Source of the DNA: Candidatus Obscuribacterales bacterium
Lineage (GTDB): Bacteria; Cyanobacteriota; Vampirovibrionia; Obscuribacterales; Obscuribacteraceae
Assembly (NCBI GenBank): GCA_021732565.1
Contig: JAKFUT010000005.1
Coordinates: 1-64,000, forward strand
Direction: 5' to 3'
DNA: 64,000 nucleotides
Under the pieces are notes generated by a model. It did no database searches and was not told where the DNA came from. It was given only the letters and a program-made list of their open reading frames with translations. Of this stretch, positions 7,464 to 63,866 are shown in pieces. Numbering within the stretch: position 1 is the first letter of the stretch; every line of letters starts with the position of its first letter. Made by a program: the position numbers and the translations under genes.

Positions 7464-7569
7464 GTCTATGATAGTAGGCAGTTTTCAAATTTCAAGTTTC
7501 GAGTAATTGAACGAATGAGGTTGCATCCGCTGATATTCAGGTAATTCCTCCAACAATGTTCCACGGTGT

Positions 7570-8337: not shown

Positions 8338-8416
8338 GTCTGACGATGTGGATCGCAAGACATGGTAACTTGCCCGTTCAAAAGAGCCCTATGCCTGTGT
8401 CACGATGGCGATGAAC

Positions 8417-8959: not shown

Positions 8960-9039
8960 CTTATTTCATGCACTCAGGGCTCTTGATTCAACAATAGCGC
9001 GTGACGTTCCAACATGTCTGCTGGAGCAGTGTTGAGACT

Positions 9040-39309: not shown

Positions 39310-41403
39310 CTAGTCTGAATCCGGAACCTCTTTTGCTGTACCCAACTTGCTTCCCAGCTCATCGATCTGTTTTTTTACGGCGCTGAGATCAGCCTGAGTA
39401 GCATCAATCTTACCCGCCGGTATTGCCTGCCGGAGCAATTCTGCGTATGCTTTGAGGTCTTCGAAAAGGAGGTGCTCATCTTTTGTCTCTTTTGCAGTTT
39501 TTATTGCTGACCTGAGAACCTTTGCTCCCTCGGAAAACTGATTCTGGTCGCGGTAAAAAGTACCCAATGTGAAATATGCTTTTGAGAGAAGTTTGTTATC
39601 TTCTTCCGTCCGCTTCTCGACGCTCTCACGAATTTTTGCAGCGTCAAGATACAATTTTTCTGCCTCGTCAAAACGCTGCGACTCGGTATAACATTTTCCC
39701 AATTGTGTTTTGAGATCAGCTAGTCTAGCTGCTTTGTCCAGCCCGTTCGATCTATAAACCCGTACTGCCTGCGTGAGTAATTGCTGTTCTTCCGTGTGCA
39801 GCTCTCGCGAATGCAACCGTATTGCTATGTCCAAGGCGCCGGTTCCGGTCCCGAGCACTCCTGCTTTTCGTTGATCGGTTTCCGCAGGGTTAGACACAGG
39901 CACCTCCAACTTGGAAAGGCGGCCTTGCATTACCAGATAATCTCTTTTAACTTGAATGGTCACGATATTCCTTATTTCAGTGCGAACGCGTTCAAGCTCT
40001 GCACCGTCAACGAATTTGCTTTCGGCCCTTAGTATTTGTTCGAGGCGAGTGTCATTGTCGTCATACTTGCGAGCCATTGCCTCGGCTTGCTTCGCCACAT
40101 TCTCGGCTTCGACGAAATTGGCTTTTGCAATACTTTCATTCATCTTTTGAAGCATAAGACCGTACATGCCGCGATCATAGAGCGAAAGACTGTCAAGACC
40201 CTTTGTGCCGTATGGAATGGTAAAAACGATGGCTGCCAGTCCAAGTACTCCGAAAACAATCAACACCGCAACTGCAAGATTTCCGCCGCCCGCTTTAGCA
40301 GGACCACGAAAACCGCCAGTCGCTGCAAGTTTCACCCGATCAAATGTTTGCGATAAAGCAGATTTTCGCGAAACTTCCTGTACCGCGCCTGCTCTGTATC
40401 CTTTAATTCCGCTTGCCAATGCGGCATCCAGCAATGCCTGCCGAAGTTCTGCAACGGTGGAATAACGCTTGTCTGGATTCTTCTCCAGGCATTTCATTAT
40501 CACTGCTTCAATGGCGGAAGGTATCGCTAAAGCGGGTGCTGTCTTGCTGAATGGAGGAGGGGCTTCCTGCAGGTGTTTGACCACGGTATTTATGTACGTG
40601 TCACCTATGAGTGGCGGCGTACCCGATAGCGTTTCATACATAAGACAGCCGAAGGAATAGATATCCGACCTCGGATCCATGGCGGTGCCATTGCACTGCT
40701 CCGGGCTCATATATAGAGGGCTGCCAAATATCTCACCGGTTTGCGTTAGTTGCTGACGCTGTTTTTCTCCCTCTTGCGGAGCCGCTTTGGCGATGCCAAA
40801 GTCCACCAGTTTCACCAGATCCGTGCCGTCGGCCTCAGTAATTACTACCAGGTTGCTTGGTTTGATATCGCGATGAATGATCCCTTTCTTGTGGGCGTGT
40901 TCAAGCCCGTCAAGACCCTGTTTAAATATTTCAATGGACCGAGCCAGAGGCAGCGTGCCGTTGTTCTCAACAAGATCCGAAAGGCTCAATCCCTCAAGGC
41001 AGTCCATTACCAGGTAGGCCTGTTTGGGCTCGACTTCTGTAAAACCGAAGTCGTGCACCACTACTACGTTTTGATGTGATAGTGAGGCGGCGGCCGATGC
41101 CTCTCGGCGAAAACGTTCTCTGGCCACCTCATCATGGGTAAGTTCGCGGTTGAGGAGCTTGAGCGCCATAACCCTTTCCATGTGGATATGGCGTGCCTTG
41201 TAGACGATGCTCATTCCCCCTGTACCAAGTACAGACAGAATTTCATATTTGCCAAGAAAAGTGGTACCCAGAAATCTGTCTTTTTCTTGCCGGGCCAGTT
41301 CACTTCCGTCATCAGGACATTTATCTACTCCCGCAGGGTACGTCTTGCTGCATATCTTGCAGATGCGGACAGAGCCGGAATGCTTGGCGGTTTGATCAGT
41401 CAT
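39310..41403 (-). CDS. Ser/Thr kinase with zinc-ribbon-like N-terminus, TM helix and TPR domain
   Basis: Residues 15-32 have C-x2-C...CPDDG, a partial zinc ribbon. The kinase domain (about 53-320) has GTGGMS, Lys82, HRDIKPSN with Asp179, DFG at 201-203 and the SPEQC activation end, so it should be active. A membrane helix follows (about 376-398), then a TPR region (about 500-680) on the far side. This architecture, a cytoplasmic kinase joined to an outer TPR sensor, is common in cyanobacteria-like phyla. It is convergent with heme oxygenase and lies downstream of the pseudo-caspase gene on the same strand, separated by 350 bp holding a 28-bp palindrome. Confidence 0.93.
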   Translation of the reverse strand: MTDQTAKHSGSVRICKICSKTYPAGVDKCPDDGSELARQEKDRFLGTTFLGKYEILSVLGTGGMSIVYKARHIHMERVMALKLLNRELTHDEVARERFRREASAAASLSHQNVVVVHDFGFTEVEPKQAYLVMDCLEGLSLSDLVENNGTLPLARSIEIFKQGLDGLEHAHKKGIIHRDIKPSNLVVITEADGTDLVKLVDFGIAKAAPQEGEKQRQQLTQTGEIFGSPLYMSPEQCNGTAMDPRSDIYSFGCLMYETLSGTPPLIGDTYINTVVKHLQEAPPPFSKTAPALAIPSAIEAVIMKCLEKNPDKRYSTVAELRQALLDAALASGIKGYRAGAVQEVSRKSALSQTFDRVKLAATGGFRGPAKAGGGNLAVAVLIVFGVLGLAAIVFTIPYGTKGLDSLSLYDRGMYGLMLQKMNESIAKANFVEAENVAKQAEAMARKYDDNDTRLEQILRAESKFVDGAELERVRTEIRNIVTIQVKRDYLVMQGRLSKLEVPVSNPAETDQRKAGVLGTGTGALDIAIRLHSRELHTEEQQLLTQAVRVYRSNGLDKAARLADLKTQLGKCYTESQRFDEAEKLYLDAAKIRESVEKRTEEDNKLLSKAYFTLGTFYRDQNQFSEGAKVLRSAIKTAKETKDEHLLFEDLKAYAELLRQAIPAGKIDATQADLSAVKKQIDELGSKLGTAKEVPDSD

Positions 41404-41753: not shown

Positions 41754-43553
41754 TTATGGTGTCGAGGCGTTGATCTGGTCTAGATGGGCCTGAGCTGCGG
41801 CTCTCCTTGCATCACCGGCGGGAAGGAGTTCGATGAATTTGACTAATTCGTCTCTCGCTTCCGCAACATCAGAAGTTTTCTCCAGTACTTTGCTTAAGAG
41901 CATATGAGCATCCACATTAGAGGGAGCCAGTTTGATCGCTTCTCTGTACTGCACTATCGCCGGTTGCAGATCGCCTTTGGTGGCAAGCAGAGAGCCCATG
42001 TTCAGTCTGGCTGATACCAAGGCAGGGTCGAGCTGCACGGCTTTTTCGATATGCTGATAAGCGTCGTTGAAGTTTCCCGAGGCGGAAAGCGCAAATCCCA
42101 GACGATCGTGAAGCGACGCCATATTCGGATACATATCCAGTGCATCTTGAAGTAGTCCGATAGCGGAGTGAACATCGCCTGCTGAAATCGTTTTGTCTGC
42201 CAGCGCGCACAAAATTACGCGATCTTTCGGATTCAAATTGTAGGCCTTTTCCAGTTCTCGCCGACATTCCACTGTCTGACCGAGTGCGTCGAGAACCCTC
42301 GCGTAGTTCGCTCGGTAGAGTGAGTCATTCGGTTTTAGCGTCACTGCTTGCTTGAGTTGCTGCACGGCATCCTTCCATTTGCCTTGCAATGCCAGCGCAA
42401 CTCCGTAATCGGCCAGAGCATCCGAATAGGACGGATCGGTGGCCACCGCCGCTTCATACTCGGAAATTGCAGCGGTCAAATCGCCGGCTCCCATCAGTCT
42501 GCTTGCTTTGAGATAGTGAGATTCTGCGCCGAGAAAGTTGCGCACAGACTCCGGAAGCATAGCCAGCTGCTCAAGAACGGGAGCACCGAGAGTGAGATCT
42601 GCGCCACTCCAATCAGACTTAAGAACGGGTGTTTGTTTTCGTCCTTCATTGAGTGCGTCTGTTTGCGTGTTCTCTTTGGCTTTCTCAAACGCGTCTGGCA
42701 AGCTAATCTTTCCGTCGTTTTGTAAAAGAGCAACCGTGAGATTTTCAGAGAAGCGCGTGCCTCTTATGGCTTGATCTGGTTTGGCAGAGCACAGCAACAT
42801 ATAGCCGTGACCCAACACTACCTTGTTCAAATCAAGACTATAGTTAGACGTAAGCTCTCTGGCACCCAATAAATTGGCTGAGCCGCTATACGGAGATTCG
42901 AGTATCAGTACCACCCGGTCTGATTTTACCTGGTCTTTTAACGTCTTCATAATGGATTGCATGGAGACGCAAGTGCCGTAGATATTATCTAGAGCCGTAT
43001 TGTAGGAGCATAACCAGCTGTTCCCGTCGGTGGTGGGAAAGCCCTGCGTGGCAATGTAAACTACCACCAGATCGTCCGGACCCGCAAGAGTTCCAAGCCA
43101 TGACGGGCTGAGTGATGTAGCTATGTTTTGCTGAGTCGCATCATCGTTCAACAGCAGCTTTACATGGTCCGGTTGAAACCGCCCACCCTTCTCGCTGAGC
43201 AGGTATGAGTGAAACTTTTTTGCAGCCTTGTCGATAAACTGATCATTGTTCATGCGTTTATCTTTGAATTTGCCGACAGCTATCACAATCGCCCACTTTT
43301 GACGGATCGGGCGGTTTAGAGGCTTGGTATCAGGCGATAAATCCTGAATCTTAGTGAAACTCACCGGGCTCTTTTTCTCCTGGGCGAAAACTTCACCAGG
43401 AGCAAGAAATTGCCCTGCCACCATCGCGATAACGGTGCCAATGGCAGCGCTCGGTCTGTTTGTTAAGAACCCGGTGTGACTGCGGTGCTTGCAAGTTCGT
43501 ATATAGTTCTGCACCGGAGGCGCGACATTATCAGTTGTGGTCGAGTGCAACAT
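41754..43553 (-). CDS. Caspase-like (peptidase C14) protein without catalytic residues, with TPRs
   Basis: The N-terminus has a signal-like segment (about 38-58, ending VFAQE). A caspase-type domain follows (about 83-310): KWAIVIAVGKFKDKRM, DHVKLLLNDDATQQNI, DLVVVYIATQGFP and RVVLILESPYSGSA. In the two active relatives in this window these read STHGSP or ASHGTG and LDTCYSG or LDTCHAG; here His is Gln170 and Cys is Pro221, so it cannot act as a cysteine protease. About six TPR units follow (about 350-590). ATG 43553 lies 20 bp inside the hydrolase gene's 3' end, so translation is probably coupled. It may bind substrates or regulate the active caspases. Confidence 0.85.
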   Translation of the reverse strand: MLHSTTTDNVAPPVQNYIRTCKHRSHTGFLTNRPSAAIGTVIAMVAGQFLAPGEVFAQEKKSPVSFTKIQDLSPDTKPLNRPIRQKWAIVIAVGKFKDKRMNNDQFIDKAAKKFHSYLLSEKGGRFQPDHVKLLLNDDATQQNIATSLSPSWLGTLAGPDDLVVVYIATQGFPTTDGNSWLCSYNTALDNIYGTCVSMQSIMKTLKDQVKSDRVVLILESPYSGSANLLGARELTSNYSLDLNKVVLGHGYMLLCSAKPDQAIRGTRFSENLTVALLQNDGKISLPDAFEKAKENTQTDALNEGRKQTPVLKSDWSGADLTLGAPVLEQLAMLPESVRNFLGAESHYLKASRLMGAGDLTAAISEYEAAVATDPSYSDALADYGVALALQGKWKDAVQQLKQAVTLKPNDSLYRANYARVLDALGQTVECRRELEKAYNLNPKDRVILCALADKTISAGDVHSAIGLLQDALDMYPNMASLHDRLGFALSASGNFNDAYQHIEKAVQLDPALVSARLNMGSLLATKGDLQPAIVQYREAIKLAPSNVDAHMLLSKVLEKTSDVAEARDELVKFIELLPAGDARRAAAQAHLDQINASTP

Positions 43554-45180
43554 CGACAGAAAGTACTCCCTCAGGATTCGCGAATGATACCTTAACCAGG
43601 TTGGTTTCAAGACCTTGCTCACCGCCCTGTGCACTGGCGAGTGCAGTATTGTTGGACATTGATGAAGGCATGATAACAGGATTGGGATCACCCCAACTCA
43701 ATTCCATGCGCGTTGGCACCAGATCCTTGGCGCCAGTGCGATCGGGTGATACGAAAGCCGTTAGCAGTGATGAATTTTGCACCGATGGATCAAGTGGTCG
43801 CCGTGAGAATATAACTGATACTCGTTCTTGCCCGGGATTATTGTCGAAGCGCAGCCACGACTTTGTGGGAAGCGCTATGTCATGTTGAGCGCCGATTCGA
43901 TTGAATCTGCCGGTTTGGTCGTCAGGAAAGAGTACGGCGTGTTTTCCAGTGGTGCCTGCTTTCAACAAGATGTAGGCAAAACCGTCTACATTTGCTCGAA
44001 CATGCAGCCTGATTTCGTCTCCTGATTTAAAAGCTATTTTGTTGTTGCAACGAAAACGTTTACCGTCACGCATTAGTTCGATCCAATAGGTTATGGCAAG
44101 CTTGTCGGCACCATTGGAAGTGGCAGAAGTAGCAGATGCGGGAATGACGTCGCTGGGATGTTCCGGTTGATTGACTGATGTTCCCGGTTTGACAGTGGCA
44201 AGCTTCACGTCTTCGGCAATTTCTTTGGCCAGTCGCTTATCAATCCAATTAGAAACAAATCGCAAGTCATCGCTGGAAAATTGTCCATACTCAAAAATTA
44301 AGTGTTCGGCGTTGCTGCTCAGTGCAATGTCTAAATTCGGTGTTGCAAGGTGCTCCCACACATCCCAGGTGCCGCTCGGGTGCACTAATTTATCGCGCGC
44401 TCCTTGAATAATTAAAACCGGCAGTTGCTTTACCTGTTTTGCCACGTCAAAATTCTGTTTCATGAAGCTCTGGAAGGTCATCAATTCAGCCGGTGAAAAG
44501 TTATTGCGTCCGCGCGGATCATTTTTCCACAGATCGCGAAGGTCTTGTTTTGCAGTGGCGTATTGCACCACGTGGCTGCCCACGTCAAAGCGTTCTTTGA
44601 AGCCTCCGGCCAAGATTCGCAGTGTTACGTGTAAATCTCCACCGAGACCGCCGAAGCGATCATTGGAAGGCACTGAACTGATCAAACCCGCGACCATATC
44701 GGCATTTTGGGCAGCGGCTTGCAGCGCCACTGCTCCACCCATCGATTCTCCCAGCAGGAAAATTGGAGCGTCGGGATATTGTGCGCGAATATCTTTCAAG
44801 GTTTTGGTAACGTCCAAAAGCGACGCGGGAAAGTCTAGTTTCGGTTGTCCATTTTGGTACCAGGTTCCAAAACCACGCACATCGACGGCATATACAGCTA
44901 CATCTCGGTTTGCCATGGCAGTGGCAAATTGAGCAAATGTTCCGCGATGAAGACCTAGCCCGTGAATACAGAGCATTGCCGCTCTGGCTCTTCCCCTGAC
45001 GGGGCGCCAAAAGCTGAGGGGCGGGTTTTGACTGATGGTTTCTTCAGGTATCGGCTGGTCTGGTCCTCCCGTGCTGCTGCGAAGCACCGCCGGGCTCGAG
45101 AGGGGCTGGCCCGTCGCCGGGACCGGTGTAGTTACCATTAAAGTTAACAATGCTGCTGTAAAGCGGAACGTATTATTCAT
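43531..45180 (-). CDS. Exported alpha/beta hydrolase with C-terminal DUF4384
   Basis: A signal segment (about 5-24) precedes an alpha/beta hydrolase domain (about 60-320) of the monoacylglycerol-lipase type: AMLCIHGLGLHRG, nucleophile S146 in GESMGG, the Asp in QGARDKLVHP and the His in NAEHLIFEYG, so the triad is complete. Residues about 355-480 are DUF4384: YWIELMRD, FKSGDEIRLHVRANVDGFAY and AVLFPDDQTG. The tail ends in LSVDVALDHN, a motif shared with the two other DUF4384 proteins here. It overlaps the pseudo-caspase gene by 23 bp and is divergent from the stand-alone DUF4384 gene at 45750. Confidence 0.88.
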   Translation of the reverse strand: MNNTFRFTAALLTLMVTTPVPATGQPLSSPAVLRSSTGGPDQPIPEETISQNPPLSFWRPVRGRARAAMLCIHGLGLHRGTFAQFATAMANRDVAVYAVDVRGFGTWYQNGQPKLDFPASLLDVTKTLKDIRAQYPDAPIFLLGESMGGAVALQAAAQNADMVAGLISSVPSNDRFGGLGGDLHVTLRILAGGFKERFDVGSHVVQYATAKQDLRDLWKNDPRGRNNFSPAELMTFQSFMKQNFDVAKQVKQLPVLIIQGARDKLVHPSGTWDVWEHLATPNLDIALSSNAEHLIFEYGQFSSDDLRFVSNWIDKRLAKEIAEDVKLATVKPGTSVNQPEHPSDVIPASATSATSNGADKLAITYWIELMRDGKRFRCNNKIAFKSGDEIRLHVRANVDGFAYILLKAGTTGKHAVLFPDDQTGRFNRIGAQHDIALPTKSWLRFDNNPGQERVSVIFSRRPLDPSVQNSSLLTAFVSPDRTGAKDLVPTRMELSWGDPNPVIMPSSMSNNTALASAQGGEQGLETNLVKVSFANPEGVLSVDVALDHN

Positions 45181-45749
45181 GTACCTGACTCAAATCAGTG
45201 GAGATTTCGATTTTAATTTTGATTCGACTTCCAACCGGCTAAATTTAGGTTGCCGGACGTAGAGTTGGTTGAACATTCTTAATCGTACCGCAATCCTGCT
45301 TGAGTTCTCGCTGTTTTCAGCTTTTGCAACACCCTGGCAAGATTACCGGTTTCTCAAATGTGACAGGCAGCTCCGATCCCTGCGCTTTCATCGCTGCAAT
45401 AATTTCCCGAGGTTTTCACGCTTTTGTTCTGTTTTGTTGACAGCCAGTTGCTTCGCAAACATATTTACCGCAGGCTGTTGCAATGGCTAACTCATTGGCA
45501 CAGTCTGATTGAAGCGAGGTGCGCGTCTGGCGCGAAACGAGCGGCTAGCGTGCACGAGGCGACAGTGAACCCGAAGGAACGCTTACAATTGTATTTGATT
45601 TATTCGACCCGTATCGGTGCATATTCTCTATGGTTCAACTTGAAGAATCCTCAGCCGGATTCCCGGGAAAGACGTGTTACGGAAAAGCATAACAGCCCAA
45701 AGGCTTGCTAGGATAATAGAAAGTGAAATTCGACGGAGAAAGCAATCTT
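45181..45749. other. Divergent intergenic region, no gene seen
   Basis: It separates two divergently read DUF4384 genes and should hold both promoters. No convincing promoter pair, inverted repeat or small gene was found by eye. Confidence 0.4.
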
Positions 45750-46523
45750 ATGCACGGGCTGGCAAAATGTTCAGCAATCCTCATTGGTTTGACAATGTTG
45801 TTCGCTAACGGTCCGAGTGCCTTCGCGGAAAACGGAGCTAAAGATCTCTTCTACAAGCAAATGTCTCGACCGGGCGAGCAGTTGAATACAGGTGTTCAAT
45901 ACTGGATCGAGCTGCGGCGCAACAACGAATCAACCAGGGTCAATAACAAGTTTGAGTTTAAATCCGGCGACAAGATAAAATTTCATGTAAAGGCTAATAT
46001 CAGTGGTTTTGCTTATGTGATCCTTCGAGAAGGAAGCAAAGGCGAGCACGAGGTACTCTTTCCGGATAGACAGTCGGACGACAACCGAATAAAAGCAGGC
46101 GCCGACTATGCGCTTCCAGGCGATGGCTATTTATTATTTGACTCTGTGCCAGGAAATGAAAAACTGATGCTGGTGCTTTCCCGCTCGCCTATTCGCGTAG
46201 ACGACTATATAAAAAATTCTACACAGCCTCGAGTTCTTGTTGCCTCGAGACAGCCGGGCTCGAAAGATCTGGTGCCAGGGTCTGCAGTGGTGTCGTTCGA
46301 CGACAACTCACAAATTGCAGACATGCCCGCCGACAGTTCAACGTCTACTATTGCCGTAAAACCACCGGAGAAAACAACAATCCTGGTATCAAGTGATACC
46401 AGCCCCGGTACCAACCCTGATATTCCACTTCCTGCGGGCATGGCTAATTCCGTGACCACTGTAATCGAAAAGGATCCGCAGATCGTCCTGGCGCTCGATA
46501 TCGTGTTGTCTCACAAACCCTGA
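45750..46523 (+). CDS. Exported stand-alone DUF4384 protein
   Basis: A 257-residue secreted protein: signal peptide MHGLAKCSAILIGLTMLFAN to SAFA, then GAKDLFYKQMSR, then DUF4384 (YWIELRRNN, FKSGDKIKFHVKANISGFAYVIL, EVLFPDRQSDDNRI) and a 90-residue tail ending LALDIVLSHKP. The GxKDLFYxQMxR motif and the tail also occur in the DUF4384-caspase at 61964-63625, so this is the same module without the protease. ATG 45750 with GGAG upstream gives a normal signal peptide; a GTG at 45723 is less likely. DUF4384 is often linked with caspases and kinases, and its role is not established. Confidence 0.83.
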   Translation: MHGLAKCSAILIGLTMLFANGPSAFAENGAKDLFYKQMSRPGEQLNTGVQYWIELRRNNESTRVNNKFEFKSGDKIKFHVKANISGFAYVILREGSKGEHEVLFPDRQSDDNRIKAGADYALPGDGYLLFDSVPGNEKLMLVLSRSPIRVDDYIKNSTQPRVLVASRQPGSKDLVPGSAVVSFDDNSQIADMPADSSTSTIAVKPPEKTTILVSSDTSPGTNPDIPLPAGMANSVTTVIEKDPQIVLALDIVLSHKP

Positions 46524-46707
46524 TGCGATCTTGTCTATATGACAATTTCGGCTTACATCCACTCTTCTCAGTTTTGAGTGTAAATCATACGGGAGGCTTG
46601 TTTTCGAGATTCTGCCGATGTGTTAAGCCCGTTGAAGGTGTTATTCTGCTGCATTTAGTGGAACGTTCTATTAATAAGAGGCTTCTGTGCGGAGATTAAT
46701 ATCGGAC

Positions 46708-48963
46708 ATGACTATGGCCGTCGGTCAGTTGCTTGATGAACAGTACGAGGTGCTTTCAGTACTTAGCGAGGGCACTCACAGTTATGTTTATCGCGCCAGG
46801 GAGCGCATGACCGGGCTTGCTTGCATTGTCAAAGTGTTGAAGACCGGAGAAGGCAAAGACGCTTTGGTGCGTTTTGAAGAAGAGGCGAAGAAACTTCGAA
46901 GGCTCGATCATCCCAGCGTTTCACGTTTTCAGACCTTTGGCGCTACTCCCTCAGGCGAACCGTACATGGTAATGGAGAGTGTCGAGGGCAAAAGCCTTGA
47001 AGCCGTCTTGACCGAGTGTGAACGGTTGCCCGTCGATAAAGCTCTAAAGCTGTTTGAGCAAATTTGCGACGGCATGGGCATCGCCCATCACCTTGGAATC
47101 TACCACCGAAATCTCAAACCTTCCAAGATAATTGTGACCTCGGAGACGGCGAACAATATAGCTATTAAAATCATCGATTTTGGCGTCGCTGCGGTTCTAC
47201 GATCCGACTACAATCATATTGCGAACTTGACCAAACCAGGATCCACCGTTCCCAGCCCCCACTATATGAGCCCGGAGCAATGCATGGCCAGGCAAACTGA
47301 TGGTCGGGCCGATATTTATGCGTTCGGATGCATCATGTATCGAACCCTCACCGGGCACAAACCATTTTCGGGCAAAAGTGCAATTGAGGTGTTGGCTAAG
47401 CATATCAATGAGTCGCCTCCCGGGTTTAGGCAAGTTGCTCCGAAGGTGTCCATATCGCCGGAACTGGAAAAAATCGTTATCCGGTGTCTTGAGAAAAGTC
47501 CGGAAGATCGCTTTGCGTCGGTCAGCGAGTTGAGACGGGCGCTGGAGAATTTTCAAGAAAAGGGCACCGCTGGTGCTGCTGTTTCTCATGTGATGATTCC
47601 GGGCAGCCAACCTGCCGATACGCGAAAAGACGCTGCCAAGGAAAGACCGAAAGATGCACTTAAAGCGAAGGAGGCTGCAAAACACAACTCCCACGCTGCC
47701 CCCGCCGGAGCGCCTCATCCAGCCGAGCAAACAGCTCCAGAACCGGCTCCGCAAGCCAATACCCAAACTGCTGGCGACGCCAGTCTCTCTGAACCAGGAT
47801 CTGGAACCGAAACAGGAAGAATGCGCCGGCCCCGGCCAGCAGCAGTAGAATTGACTGCCAAGAAGCCACACAACCCTATTCCCATATTGATTCTGGCGCT
47901 TCTGCTCGGTGGAGGAGCTGTGGGAGTAGCGATGATGCGCTCGTCGGCTCCTCCGGTGGTGGCTCCGCGGGGGCCCGAAGCTGGTGGTCAGGGAACCAAC
48001 GGGGCACTCAGCCTTTCACAGGTACTTGCACTGTCTCCTCCCGAATTTTCTAATCGAGCTTACTCCGAGTTACCCGAGCCGGCCAAGGAGGTCTTTGAGA
48101 AAGAAGACGCTTTTGAATCGCAATCAAGCTCAGGTGGTGGCGATTCGGTGATGAAACAGCGGGTAGATCCGGCTATTTCTCAGACCGAAGCGGTATTTGG
48201 CAAAGACTCCATTGAATTAGCCTGGCTACAGTCTCGAATTGGCGAGTTACTTTTGATCAACCGGTATTATGTTGAAGCAGAATCGCTATCAGCTGCGAGC
48301 CTTTCCCTTCAAAAGTCCAAGTTTCTCTTCAAACCCGAGTGGCTGACAGATCGCACCAGAGCGGCGCTAGTTGCTTCTAGCCTCGCCAATGGCAAACCGG
48401 CCATAGCAACTGAACAAATGATGGTTCTGTGTCAGGGCAAAGACCTTCGCCGTCCTGTCGACCAGTCGTTTAAATCGGTACTGGCCAAACTCGAAAAAAA
48501 TTCAAATGAACTCTCTATGTTGGTGTCTTCTTCGCAAATTGCAGACAGTGAGGTTGAAGAAAAATTGCGCTCGATTCTCAGTTCTTCAGAATCGGTGCGT
48601 TCACGTAATTTCGAATTGAAAACCTATGCGCTCTGGTACTTGTTGATGGCTTCGCTAAACAAGAAGGACAACGATAAAGCTATCAATGAGGTTCTGGCTC
48701 AACTTGAGGAGACAACCAAACCCGTAGAGAAAGCCAATAACGCTGTCGGGTATCTGTTGGTTCTCGCTTCGCTCAAAGCAAGAGAAGCAGATCAGCCAAA
48801 CATAGCCGCGACTATCGATGAATTGGCTGTGAAGAAATTCCAGTTCGATGATGAACATGATCCTATCTATTTGGAGTTCAAGAGACACCACCCGAAAGGT
48901 TTACCCGGGCTAGCATTGCGGCAGCCCCAGGCTGCGACCACTGGTACCATGGAGCAGAAATGA
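46708..48963 (+). CDS. Ser/Thr pseudokinase with membrane helix
   Basis: Kinase fold at about 10-280. Lys42 of the VAIK position and DFG (157-159) are kept, but the glycine loop reads SEGTHSY, the catalytic HRD is HRN (Asn135), and the following KPSN Asn is Lys140. Without the catalytic base it should be inactive or nearly so. The codon for Asn135 is AAT, one base from GAT. A Pro/Ala/Glu-rich linker (about 290-390), a membrane helix (about 393-413) and an outer TPR-like region follow. ATG 46708 is near a GGAG; a GTG start at 46687 is possible. The caspase-TPR gene starts 13 bp downstream, so both are one operon. Confidence 0.85.
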   Translation: MTMAVGQLLDEQYEVLSVLSEGTHSYVYRARERMTGLACIVKVLKTGEGKDALVRFEEEAKKLRRLDHPSVSRFQTFGATPSGEPYMVMESVEGKSLEAVLTECERLPVDKALKLFEQICDGMGIAHHLGIYHRNLKPSKIIVTSETANNIAIKIIDFGVAAVLRSDYNHIANLTKPGSTVPSPHYMSPEQCMARQTDGRADIYAFGCIMYRTLTGHKPFSGKSAIEVLAKHINESPPGFRQVAPKVSISPELEKIVIRCLEKSPEDRFASVSELRRALENFQEKGTAGAAVSHVMIPGSQPADTRKDAAKERPKDALKAKEAAKHNSHAAPAGAPHPAEQTAPEPAPQANTQTAGDASLSEPGSGTETGRMRRPRPAAVELTAKKPHNPIPILILALLLGGGAVGVAMMRSSAPPVVAPRGPEAGGQGTNGALSLSQVLALSPPEFSNRAYSELPEPAKEVFEKEDAFESQSSSGGGDSVMKQRVDPAISQTEAVFGKDSIELAWLQSRIGELLLINRYYVEAESLSAASLSLQKSKFLFKPEWLTDRTRAALVASSLANGKPAIATEQMMVLCQGKDLRRPVDQSFKSVLAKLEKNSNELSMLVSSSQIADSEVEEKLRSILSSSESVRSRNFELKTYALWYLLMASLNKKDNDKAINEVLAQLEETTKPVEKANNAVGYLLVLASLKAREADQPNIAATIDELAVKKFQFDDEHDPIYLEFKRHHPKGLPGLALRQPQAATTGTMEQK

Positions 48964-48964
48964 C

Positions 48965-48970
48965 AGGAGG
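48965..48970 (+). promoter_or_regulatory. Ribosome binding site deciding a TTG start
   Basis: AGGAGG lies six bases before TTG 48977 and just after the pseudokinase stop. It supports the TTG as the start of the caspase-TPR gene and points to coupled translation. Confidence 0.8.
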
Positions 48971-48976
48971 CTCCCG

Positions 48977-51502
48977 TTGCACGCTGACAAGAAATTATTG
49001 CCCATTCCTGGTGTAAGCAGCTTTTTCGCTTCAGAGCTTGGCTCGGTTGCACTGGCGGGCATGATTCTTGTCGCACCGCATGCGGTTGCAGGTGAACTGC
49101 GATCGAGAGATACCGGTGCCAAGACCTTTTCTCCCGTGCCTGCTTCCAAACCCATTGGTGACAAGTGGGCAGTGGTTATCGGAATAGGAAAATTCGGCGA
49201 CTCGCGTGTGCCTGAGCTCAAGTATGCGGCCAAAGATGCCAAAGATTTCTACAACTATCTTACCGATGGTGCCGGCGGCAAATTTGAGAAGGATCATGTG
49301 AAGCTTCTGATCAATGATGAAGCCACCAAGGTTAACATCATGGACATGCTCGGCGACTCATTTCTGCCCCATGCGGCCAATCCGGAAGATCTTGTCGTAA
49401 TCTATCTTTCTACCCACGGCTCGCCTGCCGGTGCTGATATTCGTGGCGTGAACTACATCGTATCTTATGATACTCGTGTTCAGCGACTGTTCGCCACCGG
49501 TTTGGAAATGAAGCAATTGCTGCGAATGATAAAAGAGAGAGTGCACACCAACCGGATAGTTCTTGTCTTAGATACTTGTTATAGTGGCGCCGGCGGTGAG
49601 GACCATAAAGGATTGACTCGCTCGAATATTGATTCAAACGGGGTGGCACAAGGCATCGGTAGCGTTGTTATTTGTTCGAGTAGTCCCGATCAACGTTCTT
49701 GGGAATCCGATGAACTGAAAAATAGCTATTTCACCAGGTACCTGATTGACTCGCTGAAGGGCGGACCGGGAAGCACTCTTGATCAGGCTTTTTCGTCAAT
49801 GAAGCAAAAGGTTCAACAGAATGTCTTGAAAGACAAGGGCGAGATCCAAACTCCGGTGATGTGTGGAACCTTTAGTGGTCCGCCGCTTCAAATTGGCGCC
49901 AAAGCCAGTGTTATGCGCCCGGCGCCGATTACGTTTGCCATCGGCGAAACTGCCACAAAGTCTGGCGGATCCGCAGTAGATCTCAGTACTTATGGCGAGC
50001 ACATGCGCAAAGCGCAAGAGCTGATGAGTGGAAATAAATTTTGGGAAGCATCACATGAACTAAATTTGGCGATCAAGTGCAATCCTGACTCGGTGGAAGC
50101 TCAGTTGGTTTCCGCTGATGTGTTTGATATTCAGGGTCGATTTGGAGAGGCCCTGGAATCTGCTAAGAAAGCAGTTCGTAACGATGAGGAGTCAGCTCGA
50201 GCGCGCGAAAAGTTGGCGCGGGCTTATCAACGCATGGCACAATCCGACGACGCATTGCGCCAGGCGCAAAAGGCAGTGACGCTTGATCCCGAGAACTCAA
50301 TGGCTCACTGTATGCTGGCCAAAATCAATGAGAAGAATTTCAATCACGTGGATCTTGCCGAACAAGAATTCAGAAAAGCATTGCAGCTAAATGGTTTAAA
50401 TGGTCCGGCACTGCTGGGGCTGGCTCGAATTTTGTATCGTCAAGGACAAGACGTGTCGGTGGTAGCGGCCCTGATTCACAAGGCATTGGACGCCGACGAG
50501 GATGATGATGAGGCCCATTTGGAATTAGCTCGATTAGTGCTCAAGCAGGGAAAAGCAGACGAGGCTGAGAAGCACGTGCGCAGGGCCATTGCGATCAATC
50601 CCAATAATGCTGTCTTGCATGCAGAGTTAGGAAGCATCCTTTCATTATCTGCCGACAAGGCAGCCGAGGCCGAAGTAGAGTTTCGCAAAGGGCTAGAACT
50701 AGGGACAGACATTGGCTATTGTCATTTTGCATTTGCGCGATTTCTTTTGGACCGTCGCGACCGAGCCGAGGAAGCTGAGAAGGAATATCGTAGCGCTATT
50801 AAGATGGACGATGACCTCGATGAAGCGAAAGTGCGCCTTGCCAGTTTGTTGATTTCCCGCAGGAAAGTCTATGACGAAGCCGACGATTTGTATCGAAAGG
50901 CTTTCGCTGCAAATCCACGCAATGCATATGCTGTTCTTGGGCTGGGAAACATCAAATCGGAATTGTATAAGGATTATGCCGGAGCTGAGGCTGAGTATAA
51001 AAAGGCTCTTACCCTGGAACCGAAGCTTGCGCTGGCGCACGATTTGCTCGGGCAGTTATATGACGGTAAAATGAGCAGAGACGCGGAAGCAAAAAAAGAA
51101 TACGAAAAAGCATTAGAGTGTGACCCTCATTGGGGGCTGGCTCATTTCCATCTGGCCATGTTGATAATGAAAACCGTAAAAGAGAAGGACCTTAACTCTC
51201 CTAACCTGGCTGTGGCGCAGCTGCAAATGGCAGTGGAGCTAGAGCCTTCCACATCTTTGTATAAAACTAAACTGGGTTGGCTGAACTCGACCTACCTGAA
51301 AAAATATCAGGAGGCTGAGGCAGACTTTCGTAAGGCCATTGAATTGAATTTGTCAGATTGGGAGGCCCACCTTCGTCTGGGCTTACTATTAATAGAAAGG
51401 CTTTCGCAGCGAAAAGCCGGTGAAGCCGAGTTGAAAACTGCCATGTCCCAGAACCCGGATGACCCGGAAGTAAAATCTGCTTGTGATAGATTTGTGCATT
51501 GA
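48977..51502 (+). CDS. Caspase-like protease (peptidase C14) with long TPR array
   Basis: A signal/membrane segment (about 20-39) is followed by a caspase domain (about 60-300): KWAVVIGIGKFGDSRV, DHVKLLINDEATKVNI, H147 in YLSTHGSP and C201 in LDTCYSG, the complete dyad of metacaspase/C14-type proteases. Residues about 335-841 form a TPR array of about 14 units (for example ARAREKLARAYQRMAQSDDALRQA). It would cleave proteins outside the inner membrane, with TPRs as substrate or partner platform. It starts with TTG, fixed by AGGAGG six bases before. It follows the pseudokinase by 13 bp, and the next large TPR gene follows after about 130 bp. Confidence 0.92.
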   Translation: MHADKKLLPIPGVSSFFASELGSVALAGMILVAPHAVAGELRSRDTGAKTFSPVPASKPIGDKWAVVIGIGKFGDSRVPELKYAAKDAKDFYNYLTDGAGGKFEKDHVKLLINDEATKVNIMDMLGDSFLPHAANPEDLVVIYLSTHGSPAGADIRGVNYIVSYDTRVQRLFATGLEMKQLLRMIKERVHTNRIVLVLDTCYSGAGGEDHKGLTRSNIDSNGVAQGIGSVVICSSSPDQRSWESDELKNSYFTRYLIDSLKGGPGSTLDQAFSSMKQKVQQNVLKDKGEIQTPVMCGTFSGPPLQIGAKASVMRPAPITFAIGETATKSGGSAVDLSTYGEHMRKAQELMSGNKFWEASHELNLAIKCNPDSVEAQLVSADVFDIQGRFGEALESAKKAVRNDEESARAREKLARAYQRMAQSDDALRQAQKAVTLDPENSMAHCMLAKINEKNFNHVDLAEQEFRKALQLNGLNGPALLGLARILYRQGQDVSVVAALIHKALDADEDDDEAHLELARLVLKQGKADEAEKHVRRAIAINPNNAVLHAELGSILSLSADKAAEAEVEFRKGLELGTDIGYCHFAFARFLLDRRDRAEEAEKEYRSAIKMDDDLDEAKVRLASLLISRRKVYDEADDLYRKAFAANPRNAYAVLGLGNIKSELYKDYAGAEAEYKKALTLEPKLALAHDLLGQLYDGKMSRDAEAKKEYEKALECDPHWGLAHFHLAMLIMKTVKEKDLNSPNLAVAQLQMAVELEPSTSLYKTKLGWLNSTYLKKYQEAEADFRKAIELNLSDWEAHLRLGLLLIERLSQRKAGEAELKTAMSQNPDDPEVKSACDRFVH

Positions 51503-51629
51503 TTTGGTGAAACGGTTGATGGATGGGTGGTTGAGCGAAGCTATTTTCAGAAGCGAATATATTTTTCTTGATTTATGATTCACTGATGCGCTCACTGAGA
51601 TAGATGGGGAAGGACAGGGTAGCGGTCGA

Positions 51630-54600
51630 ATGAGCGGAAAGTCGATAAACTACCCGTTGTTCGCTCTTTGCCTTGTGCAGATGGTCTGGTTGCAATCTTC
51701 TGTTTTCGCCCGGTCTGAGAAAGTCCATTCAGGGGCAATTCGCGGTGAACACACTCAGATTCCACCCCTCAAAGTTGCGGAGAACTCCCAGCCAGCATCA
51801 GATTTTGGGCATGTGTATTTGAAATCGAAAGGGCTCACCAGTGAATCCGAATCACTCTTGAAGTCGGCTCGAGATGATGAAGCAGCGGAAAACAATGTGT
51901 CAGCATGTGCCAAATATCTTGCTGCAGCGTCCGAAGCGCTTGATGCCGGAAACGTCAAAATATCGAAACCCATTATCGACAAAATTTCCCTCTTAGGTGC
52001 CAAACTTGATCTCACTTCAAAGAAGGCTTTGATAGCGGCGCTCCTTGAAGCAGGTGAAGCCACTCAGCGCCAGAGCCGTATCCTTACCTCAGAGTATTTG
52101 CTTACAGCTGCACTGCAATTGAAAGAGCAAACCGCTGAGACAGATATGCAACTGGTTACCACCGTTGTCAGGTTAGCATCGGTCCGGGGCTTCGAATCGC
52201 AATATGTTCCTGCGGAGACCCTATATAAACGTGCCATCGGTTTGTTGGAGTCGGGCAAGGTAGTCGATGAAGCGCTGCTGTTTCGCAGTCTTAGTTCTCT
52301 TGCCGCTCTTAGTGCTCAGCGTGGCCTCTACGCAGAGGCTTCTATTGTTTTGCAAAAATTGCTTGCGCGAATCGAGAAAAACAACAAGCCTCCCGGGTTG
52401 GACACCTGCGCTTATCTTGTTCAGTTTAGCAATACGCAGAGGCGCCTGGGGAAATTGAACGAAGCTCGCGCCCGAATGACGGCTGCTCTGGATATCGCCT
52501 CACGCCTCACAGCTTCGCTTCCGCCATCGTTTGATAAAGCGCAGGTGATAGCGCTGGCAGAAGGATTTCATGAAGCGGTGCGAACGCGAATTTCAGGAAG
52601 TCGTGCCGTTGCAGACGAACAAGTCGAGAAGGTGTTGAAGATGGCGCTTCGCCTCAGGCTGACAGCCGGTGGCTTAGACGAGTCTGTTGAGCATGAGCTT
52701 GGGGAGGCGTGCCAATATCTGGAGAAATTCGGGAAGGCGGGAGACGCAGCAGATCTCTATGCTCAGGCTCTGAAGAGCACCATCGTGGATGAGGAAAGCA
52801 GGAAGCGTGTGCGTGCCGACTATCTAGAGTGTCTCAAATCTTGTAATCGATTAGCTGAGGCTGCTCGGATTGAAGCGGAGTTAGATCGTGAGGATGAACT
52901 GCGATGGAAGGCAGCTGAAGGAATAGCGGAAGAGGCGCTCGCAAAGGCGAGGACGAGTAAGACCGATCCTGCCCGATACATTCCCAAGCTAATTGCTTTG
53001 GTTAAGGTAAGACTTTCTGCTCACAAAATAGCCGAGGCCATGGCTCTAGCAAGAGAGGTAATCGCCGTCGGGCAGAAGAACGCAGATGGGGAACTCGATG
53101 ATGATACCGTGCTGGTGCTCTGGGATTGCGCCAGGTCGTACCTCTCTAGCGACGCCAAATCTGCTGGCGGTAAGGTAGGACCGGGGGCGAACCAGAACAA
53201 TTCTGAGACTAAAAAGCCCGACACCGTTATCGATGAGCACTTCATCTATGATGTAGCGAGTCTGGATGAAAAAAACGCTGGACAAAGAACTGAGTTGGGG
53301 CGAATTACTGATCTGTCTGAAATTACAAGCCATTTCACAAAGAGCAGTCGCTTCGCTGATGCGGCCGAGTTCATGAAGTATGTGCTTGCATTGCGCAAGA
53401 GATTTCGCCCTCAGGATCTAGTCGCCGCATCGCAAGCTTATGAAGTGCTGGCGGAAATTTATCGCGAAGCAGGTGACAGAGAAAAATACAAAGAAGCAAG
53501 AAAACAGTTTCTGTCGATTATGGAGAGTCGATACAGTCATACTGATCCTCGTACCATTCGCCCTCGTCTGGTGGTGGTAGTGTTGAAAATTCAGGAGGGC
53601 AAATTAGACGAAGCCCAAGCCATTATGAACCAGGTTATTGCAACTGCTGAGAAGGCCGAGTCCGAGTCATCACATCGACCTGATGTTTTGGCTCAGATTC
53701 GCCGCATGGTTGGTATGTATCTGGCTAATTATCAAATTGTCGAAGCAGATCGAATTCTGCAAAAGGGAATGGCGCTCTCTCGTGGTTCCACCGAGCCGGA
53801 TTGGATCCGCATCTATCGCGATCGAATAATAGATTATTACTGTCGTGGTGCCGAGTACGAGAAAGCAGAAGAGCTTTGTAAATTGTACGTTGCTGCCGTT
53901 TCGAAGAAGGCTGCCGATCCTGAGGATTTGATTCGGGCACGAACCAGATTGAGCGACATATTGCTGTTTCACTCGAATTCGTTGCAGAAGCATGACAAGT
54001 CTGCGGACGCTAAGCGTGTGCTCGGGCAATCTGATCAAGAATTTGCTCAGGCAATCGCCTTGCTGCAGAAGTCTCAAGGGGGAATACCGGTTCAGGCGGC
54101 TCAGCGACGACGTAGCGCGCTGCTTGATTCAGGTTCTATCATTCGTCCCACTACTGCTCGAGAATCGCTGGGACCAGATGTACGACATCATCTGCTCGAT
54201 GTACCGAATCAGCTGGTGCCATCGCCGCGAGAACCTCTTTCGTTTGCGGTTTTCGGTCGATCCGAAGTGCTTCTGTCTGGAAACGCCAGCACCTGGTCTT
54301 GTAGTTCTGAGGTACCAGACATGCTCACGATTCTTGATTCAGGAGGAGACGTTGGCAGTTTTGGAAAAATTAAATTGAAGGATGATGCAGCGGCGCACGG
54401 CTCCTTGATGGCCAGGAGTCTTTATATGCTGCAGAACAATGTCAATCTGGGCGATTCTCTTAATGCCACGGGAAATGCTCCAAGACCGTACCCTCTGCCT
54501 CCGCCTCTCAATCTTCCGCCCGGGCTGAAAGCCGTGCGGGCCAGTATTAAACGCGGCGTAATGACACCGGCGCCGCCAGGGTACGTCGTGGATGTTGGTG

Positions 54601-55679
54601 AGCTGCTTCTCGATTGTGGCACTGTGCTCAGTCTGCCACCGGGAGATTATATAGCCAGCAAGATAACGCTTCTTGGCGGCAGCGGTCTGGAAATTTCCAA
54701 TCCCGAATCAAACTCGCCATCAGCTGCCAAAGGTGTTCGATTCTTTTTCAGGGAGATGCCTGTTTCTCCTGAAGGGAAGCAGCCTGTTCAAGTATATGTT
54801 GACGGTGGTTCGTCTATTAACTCAAAGGGATTACCGGCGCAGTTTCAGTTGTGGTATTCAGGCGCCGGTGTCTTAGCTGCCAAAGATGGTGCTCTCATTC
54901 ACGGAATTATTTATGCACCGAAGGCGCTGGTCACTTTCAGCGGAGAGCGAACGTGCATGTTTGGTTCCGTTGTTGCCGATGAGGTTCGGCTGTCCGGCGA
55001 TGCCAGAGCTATTTTCGACAAGCAGTTGCCCAATGCAAAGGCGCTCGGGCTTCCCCGTCTGAGCGTCAGACCTCTAAATAACCAACCGGTATTAACTCAG
55101 GAAAATGCCGGCGCAATCATGATGGGAGTCGATCCCGATGATGAAGAATTGTCGCGGGGCGATGCTTTAATGGGTCTTGGACAACAACCTCTTGCTCTTG
55201 AACATTACTTGAAAGCTGTGGCACAATTCCCTTCCGCTACGTCGCTAACTGCTCTGGCGCACTGCCGAATTGCGTTGAAGCAGCATCAGGATGCACTGAA
55301 CGATTGTAATCGAGCCATTTCAATTGCGCCGGATGACGCGCACTCTTATGCCACCAGGGGTGAAGTCTATGCTGCGCTCAATCTAAATGATCAAGCTCAA
55401 GGCGACTTCAAGAAAGCAATGCAATTGCTATCGCTGCCCGAATCGTACACAGAGGTGTTGACCGCTGGCATCTGCCAACTAGGACTGGGTGAAACAGAGA
55501 AGTCCATTGCGTTGCTGTCGGAATGCATTTTCATGCAAGCAGATGTTTGTCAGGCATACGAGTATCGAGCTCGGGCTTATGAGAAACAGGGAAAAGCGGA
55601 ACTGGCGAATCAAGATCGGCAGAGATTGAAGGATGTGATGATTGCCCAGCAACAGAAGGCGGCCAAGCCGCAACAGTAA
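51630..55679 (+). CDS. Giant exported TPR protein with DUF7305-like beta domain
   Basis: A 1349-residue protein. Signal peptide at about 10-27 (FALCLVQMVWLQSSVFA). Residues about 60-830 hold TPR-like helical repeats. Residues about 850-1150 are a beta-rich domain resembling the DUF7305/PilX-associated fold: LSFAVFGRSEVLLSGNAS, SKITLLGGSGLEIS, VQVYVDGGSSINSKG, LWYSGAGVLAAKDGALIHGIIYAPKALVTFSG and MFGSVVADEVRLSGDA. Two or three more TPR units end the chain (about 1165-1345). Such beta domains occur in surface and pilus proteins of planctomycetes and others. It stands after the pseudokinase-caspase operon, same strand, and may be part of it. Confidence 0.85.
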   Translation: MSGKSINYPLFALCLVQMVWLQSSVFARSEKVHSGAIRGEHTQIPPLKVAENSQPASDFGHVYLKSKGLTSESESLLKSARDDEAAENNVSACAKYLAAASEALDAGNVKISKPIIDKISLLGAKLDLTSKKALIAALLEAGEATQRQSRILTSEYLLTAALQLKEQTAETDMQLVTTVVRLASVRGFESQYVPAETLYKRAIGLLESGKVVDEALLFRSLSSLAALSAQRGLYAEASIVLQKLLARIEKNNKPPGLDTCAYLVQFSNTQRRLGKLNEARARMTAALDIASRLTASLPPSFDKAQVIALAEGFHEAVRTRISGSRAVADEQVEKVLKMALRLRLTAGGLDESVEHELGEACQYLEKFGKAGDAADLYAQALKSTIVDEESRKRVRADYLECLKSCNRLAEAARIEAELDREDELRWKAAEGIAEEALAKARTSKTDPARYIPKLIALVKVRLSAHKIAEAMALAREVIAVGQKNADGELDDDTVLVLWDCARSYLSSDAKSAGGKVGPGANQNNSETKKPDTVIDEHFIYDVASLDEKNAGQRTELGRITDLSEITSHFTKSSRFADAAEFMKYVLALRKRFRPQDLVAASQAYEVLAEIYREAGDREKYKEARKQFLSIMESRYSHTDPRTIRPRLVVVVLKIQEGKLDEAQAIMNQVIATAEKAESESSHRPDVLAQIRRMVGMYLANYQIVEADRILQKGMALSRGSTEPDWIRIYRDRIIDYYCRGAEYEKAEELCKLYVAAVSKKAADPEDLIRARTRLSDILLFHSNSLQKHDKSADAKRVLGQSDQEFAQAIALLQKSQGGIPVQAAQRRRSALLDSGSIIRPTTARESLGPDVRHHLLDVPNQLVPSPREPLSFAVFGRSEVLLSGNASTWSCSSEVPDMLTILDSGGDVGSFGKIKLKDDAAAHGSLMARSLYMLQNNVNLGDSLNATGNAPRPYPLPPPLNLPPGLKAVRASIKRGVMTPAPPGYVVDVGELLLDCGTVLSLPPGDYIASKITLLGGSGLEISNPESNSPSAAKGVRFFFREMPVSPEGKQPVQVYVDGGSSINSKGLPAQFQLWYSGAGVLAAKDGALIHGIIYAPKALVTFSGERTCMFGSVVADEVRLSGDARAIFDKQLPNAKALGLPRLSVRPLNNQPVLTQENAGAIMMGVDPDDEELSRGDALMGLGQQPLALEHYLKAVAQFPSATSLTALAHCRIALKQHQDALNDCNRAISIAPDDAHSYATRGEVYAALNLNDQAQGDFKKAMQLLSLPESYTEVLTAGICQLGLGETEKSIALLSECIFMQADVCQAYEYRARAYEKQGKAELANQDRQRLKDVMIAQQQKAAKPQQ

Positions 55680-61963: not shown

Positions 61964-63625
61964 CTAAATGCCGGCCGGTTTGCGTGGCTTGAGTGGAGGC
62001 ACCGTCACCTTTAGCTCATCGCCCTTCCACTCCGCGTCTTTGAGTACGGGTGTCTGGCGCTGGCGGAAATCTGTAACCGTCTCTTCTTCAACTTTTTGTT
62101 TTGTGTAATTAAATGCTTCTGCAAATTTGCCGTATTTGCGCAATCCATCCATGAAGTGACGGGTAAAGACACCATTGTTATATCGCAGCGAATCATGTGC
62201 AGTTTGGTTAGCAGCGGCGGAACCCACAATTAACTGCCCTGTACCTTGTGCAAGATCTTTGAAATCGAATTTCGGCAATGTTGGACCTAGCGATTTGGCG
62301 CCAGGTTCTGCGGCTCCGGCATGGCAAGTATCCAGAACTATCAAAATACGATCAGCGTTAATTCGGCGCTTAATTGTTCGCGCAAGATCCTGAATCTCAA
62401 TTCCACTTGCAAAAGGATTTGTCGGATCTGTGTCATACGCTACGAGGAAATTTTTCTTTGCCACATCTTGATCGGCCCCCGTGCCGTGGCTGGCAAAATA
62501 AATGACCACAAGATCGCCTGGTTTTACATTGGCGGGCAGGAATTGCGCGCCTAGTTGGGTCAGAATTTTCTCTCGTGTTGCTTCTGCATTCGTGAGCACC
62601 TTTACGTGATCGGGTGCGAAGTTACATTCAGTGGTGAGGAATTTTGCAAAATCTTTGGCGTCTTTGTCAGCATAAAGAAGATTCCATTTGGGATCTTTAA
62701 ACTGGCTAATTCCTACAACCACCGCCCACTTGTCGGCTACAACGCTGTTGGCTTCTTTACTAATTTCAGTTTTTTGCGGTGTTACATGCTCGATGGGGGA
62801 AGCGGAACGATCGTTGTCGGGTGGCAGCTTCGCCGAAACTGGCCTGGTAGTTTCAGTTCCGCTTGCTCGTCCGGCTGATGAAATTACAGGATCTTTAACC
62901 GCACCTTCATGGCGAAGCACCATTTCCAGAGAAAGAGGTTTTGTAATTTCAGTAGACACAACTGTGACCGCCGGCTCTTCCTTAAAGGTAGGCGGGTGCG
63001 CTGCCGGTGACCACGAAGCATTGGTAGTGAGCGGCAGATCGATTAGAGAATTTCCTTGCTTCAGCGGTGTCTTGGGCGTAATTATTATCTGTCTCTCCCG
63101 CCCTGCTGCCAGTGCGTTTTCGAGATTGAGTTTTTCCGGAGAAATAATAAGTTGAAGCCGTTCCTCACCTGGTTGGTTATCGAATTCGAGCACCCCTTGT
63201 TCAGGTAGAACGTAGTCCTCGCCTTTCTTGATTACATTATTCTCGCCGCTATCCGCTGCCGGGAACAGGACCGCCTGTGACCCATGGCTACCCGACTTCA
63301 TTACCACATACATGTAGCCGTCTATGTTGGACTGTACGTGAAATCGAATCTCATCACCACTCTTGAACGGAAACCGTGAATCGACCTTTGTGACTTCGTT
63401 GCTGCGCACTAGTTCGATGGAGTAGGTTAAACCGACATTGTCGAGATGACTGCTGGTATCACGGCGCATTTGTCGGTAGAAGAGGTCTTTGGGACCCCCC
63501 TCTGCGTATGTCGCCGCCAGGGTGGGACCGATGGTAGTCATCGATGAAAGTAACAAAAACGAGCCGAGCCAGCCGGCGGGCGTCGTGCGGCTTACCGAGT
63601 AAGTGGACTTGCACCTGAATTTCAT
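61964..63625 (-). CDS. Exported DUF4384 - caspase (peptidase C14) fusion
   Basis: A signal peptide (about 18-38, ending LAATYAEGG) is followed by GPKDLFYRQMRR, DUF4384 (about 65-170: YSIELVRSN, FKSGDEIRFHVQSNIDGYMY, AVLFPAADSG) and a linker with LSLEMVLRHEG. The caspase domain (about 297-540) has KWAVVVGISQFKDPKW, H380 in YFASHGTG and C434 in LDTCHAG, so the dyad is complete, followed by TAHDSLRYNNGVFTRHFMDGL of the small subunit. No TPRs. ATG 63625 is chosen because GGAGG lies six bases upstream. The fusion links DUF4384 directly to a caspase and explains why DUF4384 genes cluster with caspase genes at 43-51 kb. Confidence 0.92.
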   Translation of the reverse strand: MKFRCKSTYSVSRTTPAGWLGSFLLLSSMTTIGPTLAATYAEGGPKDLFYRQMRRDTSSHLDNVGLTYSIELVRSNEVTKVDSRFPFKSGDEIRFHVQSNIDGYMYVVMKSGSHGSQAVLFPAADSGENNVIKKGEDYVLPEQGVLEFDNQPGEERLQLIISPEKLNLENALAAGRERQIIITPKTPLKQGNSLIDLPLTTNASWSPAAHPPTFKEEPAVTVVSTEITKPLSLEMVLRHEGAVKDPVISSAGRASGTETTRPVSAKLPPDNDRSASPIEHVTPQKTEISKEANSVVADKWAVVVGISQFKDPKWNLLYADKDAKDFAKFLTTECNFAPDHVKVLTNAEATREKILTQLGAQFLPANVKPGDLVVIYFASHGTGADQDVAKKNFLVAYDTDPTNPFASGIEIQDLARTIKRRINADRILIVLDTCHAGAAEPGAKSLGPTLPKFDFKDLAQGTGQLIVGSAAANQTAHDSLRYNNGVFTRHFMDGLRKYGKFAEAFNYTKQKVEEETVTDFRQRQTPVLKDAEWKGDELKVTVPPLKPRKPAGI

Positions 63626-63866
63626 CATGGCCTCCAACGGCGTTCTTTCTCTAGTTGCTTCATTAAATAGAAAACTGACGCGTAACTCCCGAGCAATAGG
63701 AGTACAAATTGATTAAATCACTTTCTTTAACGATCAGGGGTCGTTTTGAGGGAGCCTTATCATAATTCGGCGGTTTTCAGTCATGCTGACTATCGGTAGA
63801 AATCGTGGAGCTTGTTGGCGCATGCCCCACGAGACCGGATTGTAGAGCACTTCGGGGTTTTCGCGT

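Follow-up and report, generated by a model that had tools for sequence, protein, structure and literature searches.

The window, which comprises bases 1 to 64,000 of a 66-kb contig (JAKFUT010000005.1) in the 8.6-Mb metagenome-assembled genome of a Candidatus Obscuribacterales bacterium (Melainabacteria, uncultured relatives of the cyanobacteria), contains a conserved two-gene operon. A gene for a putatively exported alpha/beta hydrolase of the monoglyceride-lipase family with a C-terminal DUF4384 domain (43531..45180, minus strand) is followed by a gene for a putatively exported caspase homolog with C-terminal tetratricopeptide repeats (TPRs) that has lost its catalytic residues (41754..43553, minus strand), hereafter the dead caspase. 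The strict pairing of an intact enzyme with a conserved, dead, exported-type fold argues that the dead caspase may be a non-catalytic partner of the lipase-like enzyme. All of the genes that an earlier reading of positions 41754 to 55679 (the original prediction) had named are present with the named domains, as found by Pfam and by alignment of paralogs, and its view that the dead caspase, the hydrolase and DUF4384 belong together is borne out by the recurrence of the pair across the family and by the clustering of DUF4384 with caspase genes above chance.

Conservation of the gene pair

Full-length relatives of the hydrolase-DUF4384 protein, which was searched against 60 related genomes, are present in many genera, and the dead caspase is encoded by the next gene in 20 of 20 neighbourhoods of these relatives (in two of them it is cut by the end of the contig). 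The reverse scan, in which an alignment of dead caspases was compared with 84,980 species genomes, gave 49 loci, a count not independent of the first 20 since the genomes are largely the same. After exclusion of two loci that start at contig ends, a hydrolase-DUF4384 gene lies directly upstream of the dead caspase in 46 of 47, the sole exception being L160, a contig of 3.5 kb. The distance from hydrolase to dead caspase ranges from -56 to +116 bp. In the window, the two genes overlap by 23 bp if translation of the dead caspase starts at the ATG at 43553, and by 161 bp if the longest open reading frame (starting at 43691) is used; the same 23-bp overlap is found in the same-genus relative. Comparison with relatives makes the ATG at 43553 the likely start, and the overlap noted by the original prediction is probably 23 bp rather than 161 bp.

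Of 50 genomes belonging to the family, 41 have the dead caspase, at least 15 of them in two copies; the duplicated copies that were examined keep their hydrolase partner. No dead caspase was detected in three sister-family genomes or, at a threshold of E = 1e-85, in 338 further genomes of the phylum. A few loci are in assemblies labelled as other phyla, and mislabelling is the likely cause for at least two of these (L138 and L158). Most of the flanking genes change from one genus to the next and the pair remains together, and the dead-caspase sequences are only approximately 45-50% identical to one another, still adjacent to the hydrolase.

The dead caspase

The Pfam C14 model misses the dead caspase of the window, in which Pfam detects TPRs only. 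The caspase part taken alone shares 32-38% identity with active paralogs of the same genome (E as low as 1e-47), the protein matches NCBIfam NF047832 with an E-value of 3e-13 (below the curated cut-off of that model), and three of its relatives exceed the PF00656 cut-off. Because the home-made C14 model used for neighbourhood scans had the window's dead caspase among its seeds, the claim of homology rests on these three comparisons. In an AlphaFold model (mean predicted local distance difference test score, 81), an alpha/beta domain precedes a solenoid of TPRs; the best matches of the whole chain in a fold search of the PDB are all TPR proteins, so it is on sequence grounds that the protein is assigned to the caspases.

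With homology to the C14 p20 domain and substitutions of the catalytic His and Cys, the protein has the features of a pseudo-orthocaspase. The catalytic His is replaced by Gln (Gln216, codon at 43044..43046, minus strand) and the catalytic Cys by Pro (Pro267, codon at 42891..42893, minus strand; numbering is that of the 645-aa open reading frame). The His-Cys dyad is kept in none of 48 dead caspases, which have 13 different residue combinations in its place. The basic-residue pocket also seems to have been lost, because the Asp of the LDxC motif, two positions ahead of the Cys, has given way to Gln in 33 of the 48 and to Glu in 13 and persists in only two, and nearly all have Ala or Ser where the KDA motif has its Asp; these residues are equated with the published pocket residues by motif position, not by structure. 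Beside this variation, FPTT and the following Gly (FPTT-x-G), adjoining the position of the lost His, are identical in 48 of 48, as is Cys241 (codon at 42969..42971, minus strand), in place of which the active paralogs have Gly or Ala.

In a phylogenetic tree, the 21 sampled dead caspases group on a single branch with full support, alongside a divergent protein from another genome (G002, locus L168). With synonymous sites saturated, fractions of non-synonymous divergence from the same-genus relative were compared instead of dN/dS (the ratio of non-synonymous to synonymous rates), and are alike for the dead caspase (0.198), the active caspase (0.187) and the hydrolase (0.191). The dead caspase is under purifying selection; decay as a pseudogene was rejected in view of the open frames in relatives and of selection similar to that on the active paralog. 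This genome has 25 C14 matches above the Pfam cut-off, and the dyad is intact in 23 of 24 other caspase domains that were aligned. A second dead caspase of this genome (G000:C66:22818-23987; loci L005 and L035) is fused to DUF4384, has Arg and Asn for the His and Cys, and falls outside the branch of paired dead caspases. The L168 locus of G002 (5716-9237, minus strand) is a divergent form of the pair, with an exported-type hydrolase that lacks DUF4384, a 246-aa protein between, and a dead caspase with TPRs.

The hydrolase and its DUF4384 domain

The hydrolase (Pfam Hydrolase_4, E = 2e-33; DUF4384, E = 1.8e-8) has monoglyceride lipases as its closest solved relatives both by sequence (E = 7.5e-27) and by fold. 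It possesses the alpha/beta hydrolase fold, HG motif, GxSxG motif and catalytic triad of that family, and the triad (Ser146-Asp263-His293) is invariant among 37 aligned relatives, which suggests a monoglyceride-lipase-like enzyme with an intact active site. It resembles human MGLL and Rv0183 of Mycobacterium in its fold, its GESMGG nucleophile elbow and its Ser-Asp-His triad, and differs from them in its exported-type N-terminus, its DUF4384 tail and its near-constant dead-caspase neighbour. What is kept so strictly beside the dead caspase is a lipase-like hydrolase, not a protease, and this tells against the envelope proteolysis cascade of the original prediction.

The DUF4384 domain (43795..44031, minus strand) is all-beta in the structure model. 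Scores against PF14326, for which the cut-off is 27 bits, are 34.7 bits for the hydrolase and 45.2 bits for the small DUF4384 protein encoded nearby. No solved structure resembling DUF4384 was found by sequence search, and a fold search of the hydrolase-DUF4384 fusion had only hydrolases among its best matches. Just upstream of the domain, in a region modelled as beta, Cys378 lies within an RCNNK motif; a Cys is present there in 48 of 48 sequences. Three loci (L135, L137 and L139) have two hydrolase-DUF4384 genes in tandem ahead of one dead caspase, and in the copy adjoining the dead caspase the Cys is kept but RCNNK is not matched exactly.

DUF4384 domains and caspase genes

DUF4384 is a recorded accessory domain of orthocaspases (PMC8283722, PMC7475262), present in 19 true and four pseudo-orthocaspase proteins (PMC8283722). 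Among nine genomes, 32 of 52 DUF4384 domains are located less than 5 kb from a caspase domain, versus 1.2 expected from gene density; in the genome studied here, all 11 are within 5 kb of one. Since DUF4384 otherwise keeps company with caspases, it is the natural candidate for contact with the dead caspase. From published surveys the association was already known in outline; neither its separate-gene form nor the lipase partner was found in the papers searched. In the cyanobacterial orthocaspases of these reports (PMC8283722, PMC7475262) DUF4384 is fused to the caspase, whereas here DUF4384 is found mostly in separate proteins encoded nearby, a hydrolase among them.

Fusions occur here too, such as the DUF4384-caspase protein at 61964..63637 (minus strand), which has an intact dyad and a neighbourhood conserved within the genus, so that the set of related genes extends beyond the limits drawn by the original prediction. 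Its neighbours are a kinase (60104-61528), a TPR protein (58485-59987) and another kinase (56104-58476), in an order kept in the same-genus genome (L171). Elsewhere in this genome, a segment of approximately 4.5 kb (G000:C55:30555-35081) encodes four separate DUF4384 domains and one that is fused to a caspase, beside further caspase genes, and arrays of DUF4384 proteins adjoin further caspase genes at L169 and L170.

Genes adjoining the pair

Divergently transcribed from the pair are genes for a small, putatively exported DUF4384 protein (45723..46523, plus strand; DUF4384, E = 1e-11), which recurs beside the pair in a few genera; a putative membrane pseudokinase (46687..48963, plus strand), located between the small DUF4384 gene and the next caspase; a putatively exported active caspase with TPRs (48977..51502, plus strand; C14, E = 2e-18), in which the catalytic His and Cys are present in the motifs STHG and LDTCYSG; and a 1349-aa TPR/DUF7305 protein with an exported-type N-terminus (51630..55679, plus strand). 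The kinase has HRN for HRD, as does its relative in the same-genus genome (L119), with DFG kept. The 1349-aa protein, with TPRs at each end and DUF7305 at residues 1049-1134, neighbours the pair only within the genus and is of doubtful membership. Directly downstream of the dead caspase, 39310-41403 (minus strand) encodes an active-looking Ser/Thr kinase with TPRs; L132 has a relative of it after the pair, and L147 has a weaker one there. A simple heuristic and inspection by eye gave signal-peptide-like N-termini for five proteins (the hydrolase, dead caspase, small DUF4384 protein, active caspase and 1349-aa protein); the kinase at 46687-48963 instead has a hydrophobic segment after its kinase domain. 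The surface location that the original prediction gave to the giant protein is conjectural. No RNA families were found within the window, and promoter-like sites were no more frequent than in shuffled sequences.

Gene order from 38458 to 61964 is kept in the same-genus genome, and only there do the pseudokinase and the giant TPR protein hold their places (L099/L119). In two further loci (L121 and L162), the small DUF4384 gene and an active caspase-TPR gene are divergent to the pair. The pseudokinase looks like a later insertion, because in these loci (L101/L162 and L106/L121) the caspase gene directly follows the small DUF4384 gene and no kinase gene separates the two. L165 has a small DUF4384 gene, a DUF4384-caspase fusion and another caspase beside the pair, and L132 has the small DUF4384 gene with no caspase; in most loci the pair is accompanied by neither the small DUF4384 gene nor an active caspase. 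The 14-kb block is accordingly not a conserved unit, since the pseudokinase and the giant protein accompany the pair within the genus only, and it finds no support as the single system that had been proposed: recurrence elsewhere, the test that the original prediction had set for itself, holds for the pair and fails for the complete block. In a PADLOC search, the hydrolase and the small DUF4384 protein had no match, the dead caspase matched a generic TPR model, the other proteins matched generic caspase and kinase models, and no described defence system was recognized; a known caspase-type defence system was rejected on account of these generic matches.

Proposed function and alternatives

There is, in our estimation, about an even chance that the two proteins form an envelope complex in which the dead caspase scaffolds or regulates the lipase by means of DUF4384. 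The hydrolase-DUF4384 protein and the dead caspase would act together in the envelope, DUF4384 would be an adaptor that docks onto the caspase fold, and the dead caspase would have the scaffolding or regulatory role that is common among pseudo-enzymes. Its TPRs may recruit or sense a third protein, and the cleavage of an ester in the envelope, such as a monoacylglycerol or lysophospholipid, would be placed or switched. Where they are encoded nearby, the small DUF4384 protein and active caspase-TPR protein may constitute a parallel proteolytic module that uses the same adaptor and perhaps acts on the pair. A more specific version is rather doubtful: that DUF4384 docks caspase folds in general, and that the caspase has become a permanent, non-proteolytic controller of the lipase in parallel to the active caspase-DUF4384 pairs, possibly locked to it by a disulfide between Cys378 and Cys241. 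The L168 dead caspase has Ser for Cys241 while its hydrolase lacks DUF4384; the disulfide stays a conjecture because this is a single covarying case and some other DUF4384 domains have the Cys.

Several points weigh against the proposed complex. The Cys at the DUF4384 position is also found in some DUF4384-caspase fusions. The pairing survives without DUF4384 at L168, which weakens the adaptor idea, and an active caspase is missing from the surroundings of most loci, which makes a link of the pair to proteolysis optional at best. The figure of 32 out of 52 counts domains, not independent events, and takes in the pair itself and the fusions. Both structure predictions are of single chains, and the signal peptides rest on a simple heuristic.

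The partner may regulate, localise or fold the lipase, and folding has a precedent: the genes of Pseudomonas LipA and its foldase LipH form one operon. The dead caspase might likewise be a periplasmic foldase or stabiliser for folding or secretion of the hydrolase, with no regulatory role, and the one-to-one linkage of the pair fits this; lipase-foldase pairs are arranged in the same way, with an exported lipase and, next to it, an exported partner dedicated to it, periplasmic in the case of LipH (PMC13381987). The hydrolase here is of the monoglyceride-lipase group, however; searches of the dead caspase of Pfam and NCBIfam type found no match to known foldase families, many of these genomes have approximately 20 other matches to hydrolases of the same fold which, among the matches listed, lack such a partner, and the second domain of the hydrolase is the caspase-associated DUF4384. 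A foldase is consequently judged unlikely. Somewhat less probable still is a protease cascade in the envelope, in which the pseudokinase, both caspases and the DUF4384 proteins would be one system and the dead caspase would tune the active one as FLIP does caspase-8. FLIP and other animal pseudocaspases have a dead caspase fold and a presumed regulatory role; here there are no death-fold domains, the partner is lipase-like and the predicted location is the envelope. Retention of the block within the genus, and the presence of an active caspase-TPR protein and small DUF4384 protein beside the pair in L119, L121 and L162 (with another form in L165), would suit a cascade, but the flank (up to 10 kb) is free of active caspases in most of the 49 loci, proximity of the pseudokinase and the giant protein to the pair is confined to the genus, and approximately 20 other active caspases are encoded elsewhere in the genome.

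That the hydrolase and dead caspase are coincidental neighbours with independent roles, kept together by slow rearrangement, might be supposed from their confinement to one family of related genomes; it is improbable, given that the pair stays while its flanks change between genera, that it is duplicated within genomes, and that dead caspases of such low identity to one another are still adjacent to the hydrolase. The invariance of Cys241, FPTT and Gly in 48 of 48 sequences beside a freely varying former active site could also be taken to mean that a new catalytic activity has arisen in the dead caspase around Cys241 and the FPTT-x-G loop. No residue was identified that could act as partner in catalysis, and a binding surface or a disulfide would explain the invariance just as well, so that new catalysis is a very slight prospect.

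Relation to known systems and significance

Published bacterial pseudo-orthocaspases, which like the dead caspase have the caspase p20 fold without the His-Cys dyad, keep characteristic dyads and two acidic pocket residues (Klemencic et al. 2019, PMC6426788). Among them, TPRs occur in some proteins of the FS dyad class, and DUF4384, together with a trypsin-like domain, in some of the QC dyad class. The clade described here is different in that the dyad varies freely, the pocket acids appear to be lost, FPTT-x-G and a Cys are invariant, and the fixed partner is a lipase-like hydrolase with DUF4384. No paper on Obscuribacter caspases or on the hydrolase/dead-caspase pair was found in a literature search.

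Prokaryotic pseudo-caspases have been counted in many genomes, and their partners and roles have so far been obscure. One clade of them now has a single, near-invariant partner of predictable chemistry, which makes the role of a dead caspase testable with two proteins, and the clustering of DUF4384 with caspases provides a first functional hint for this domain.

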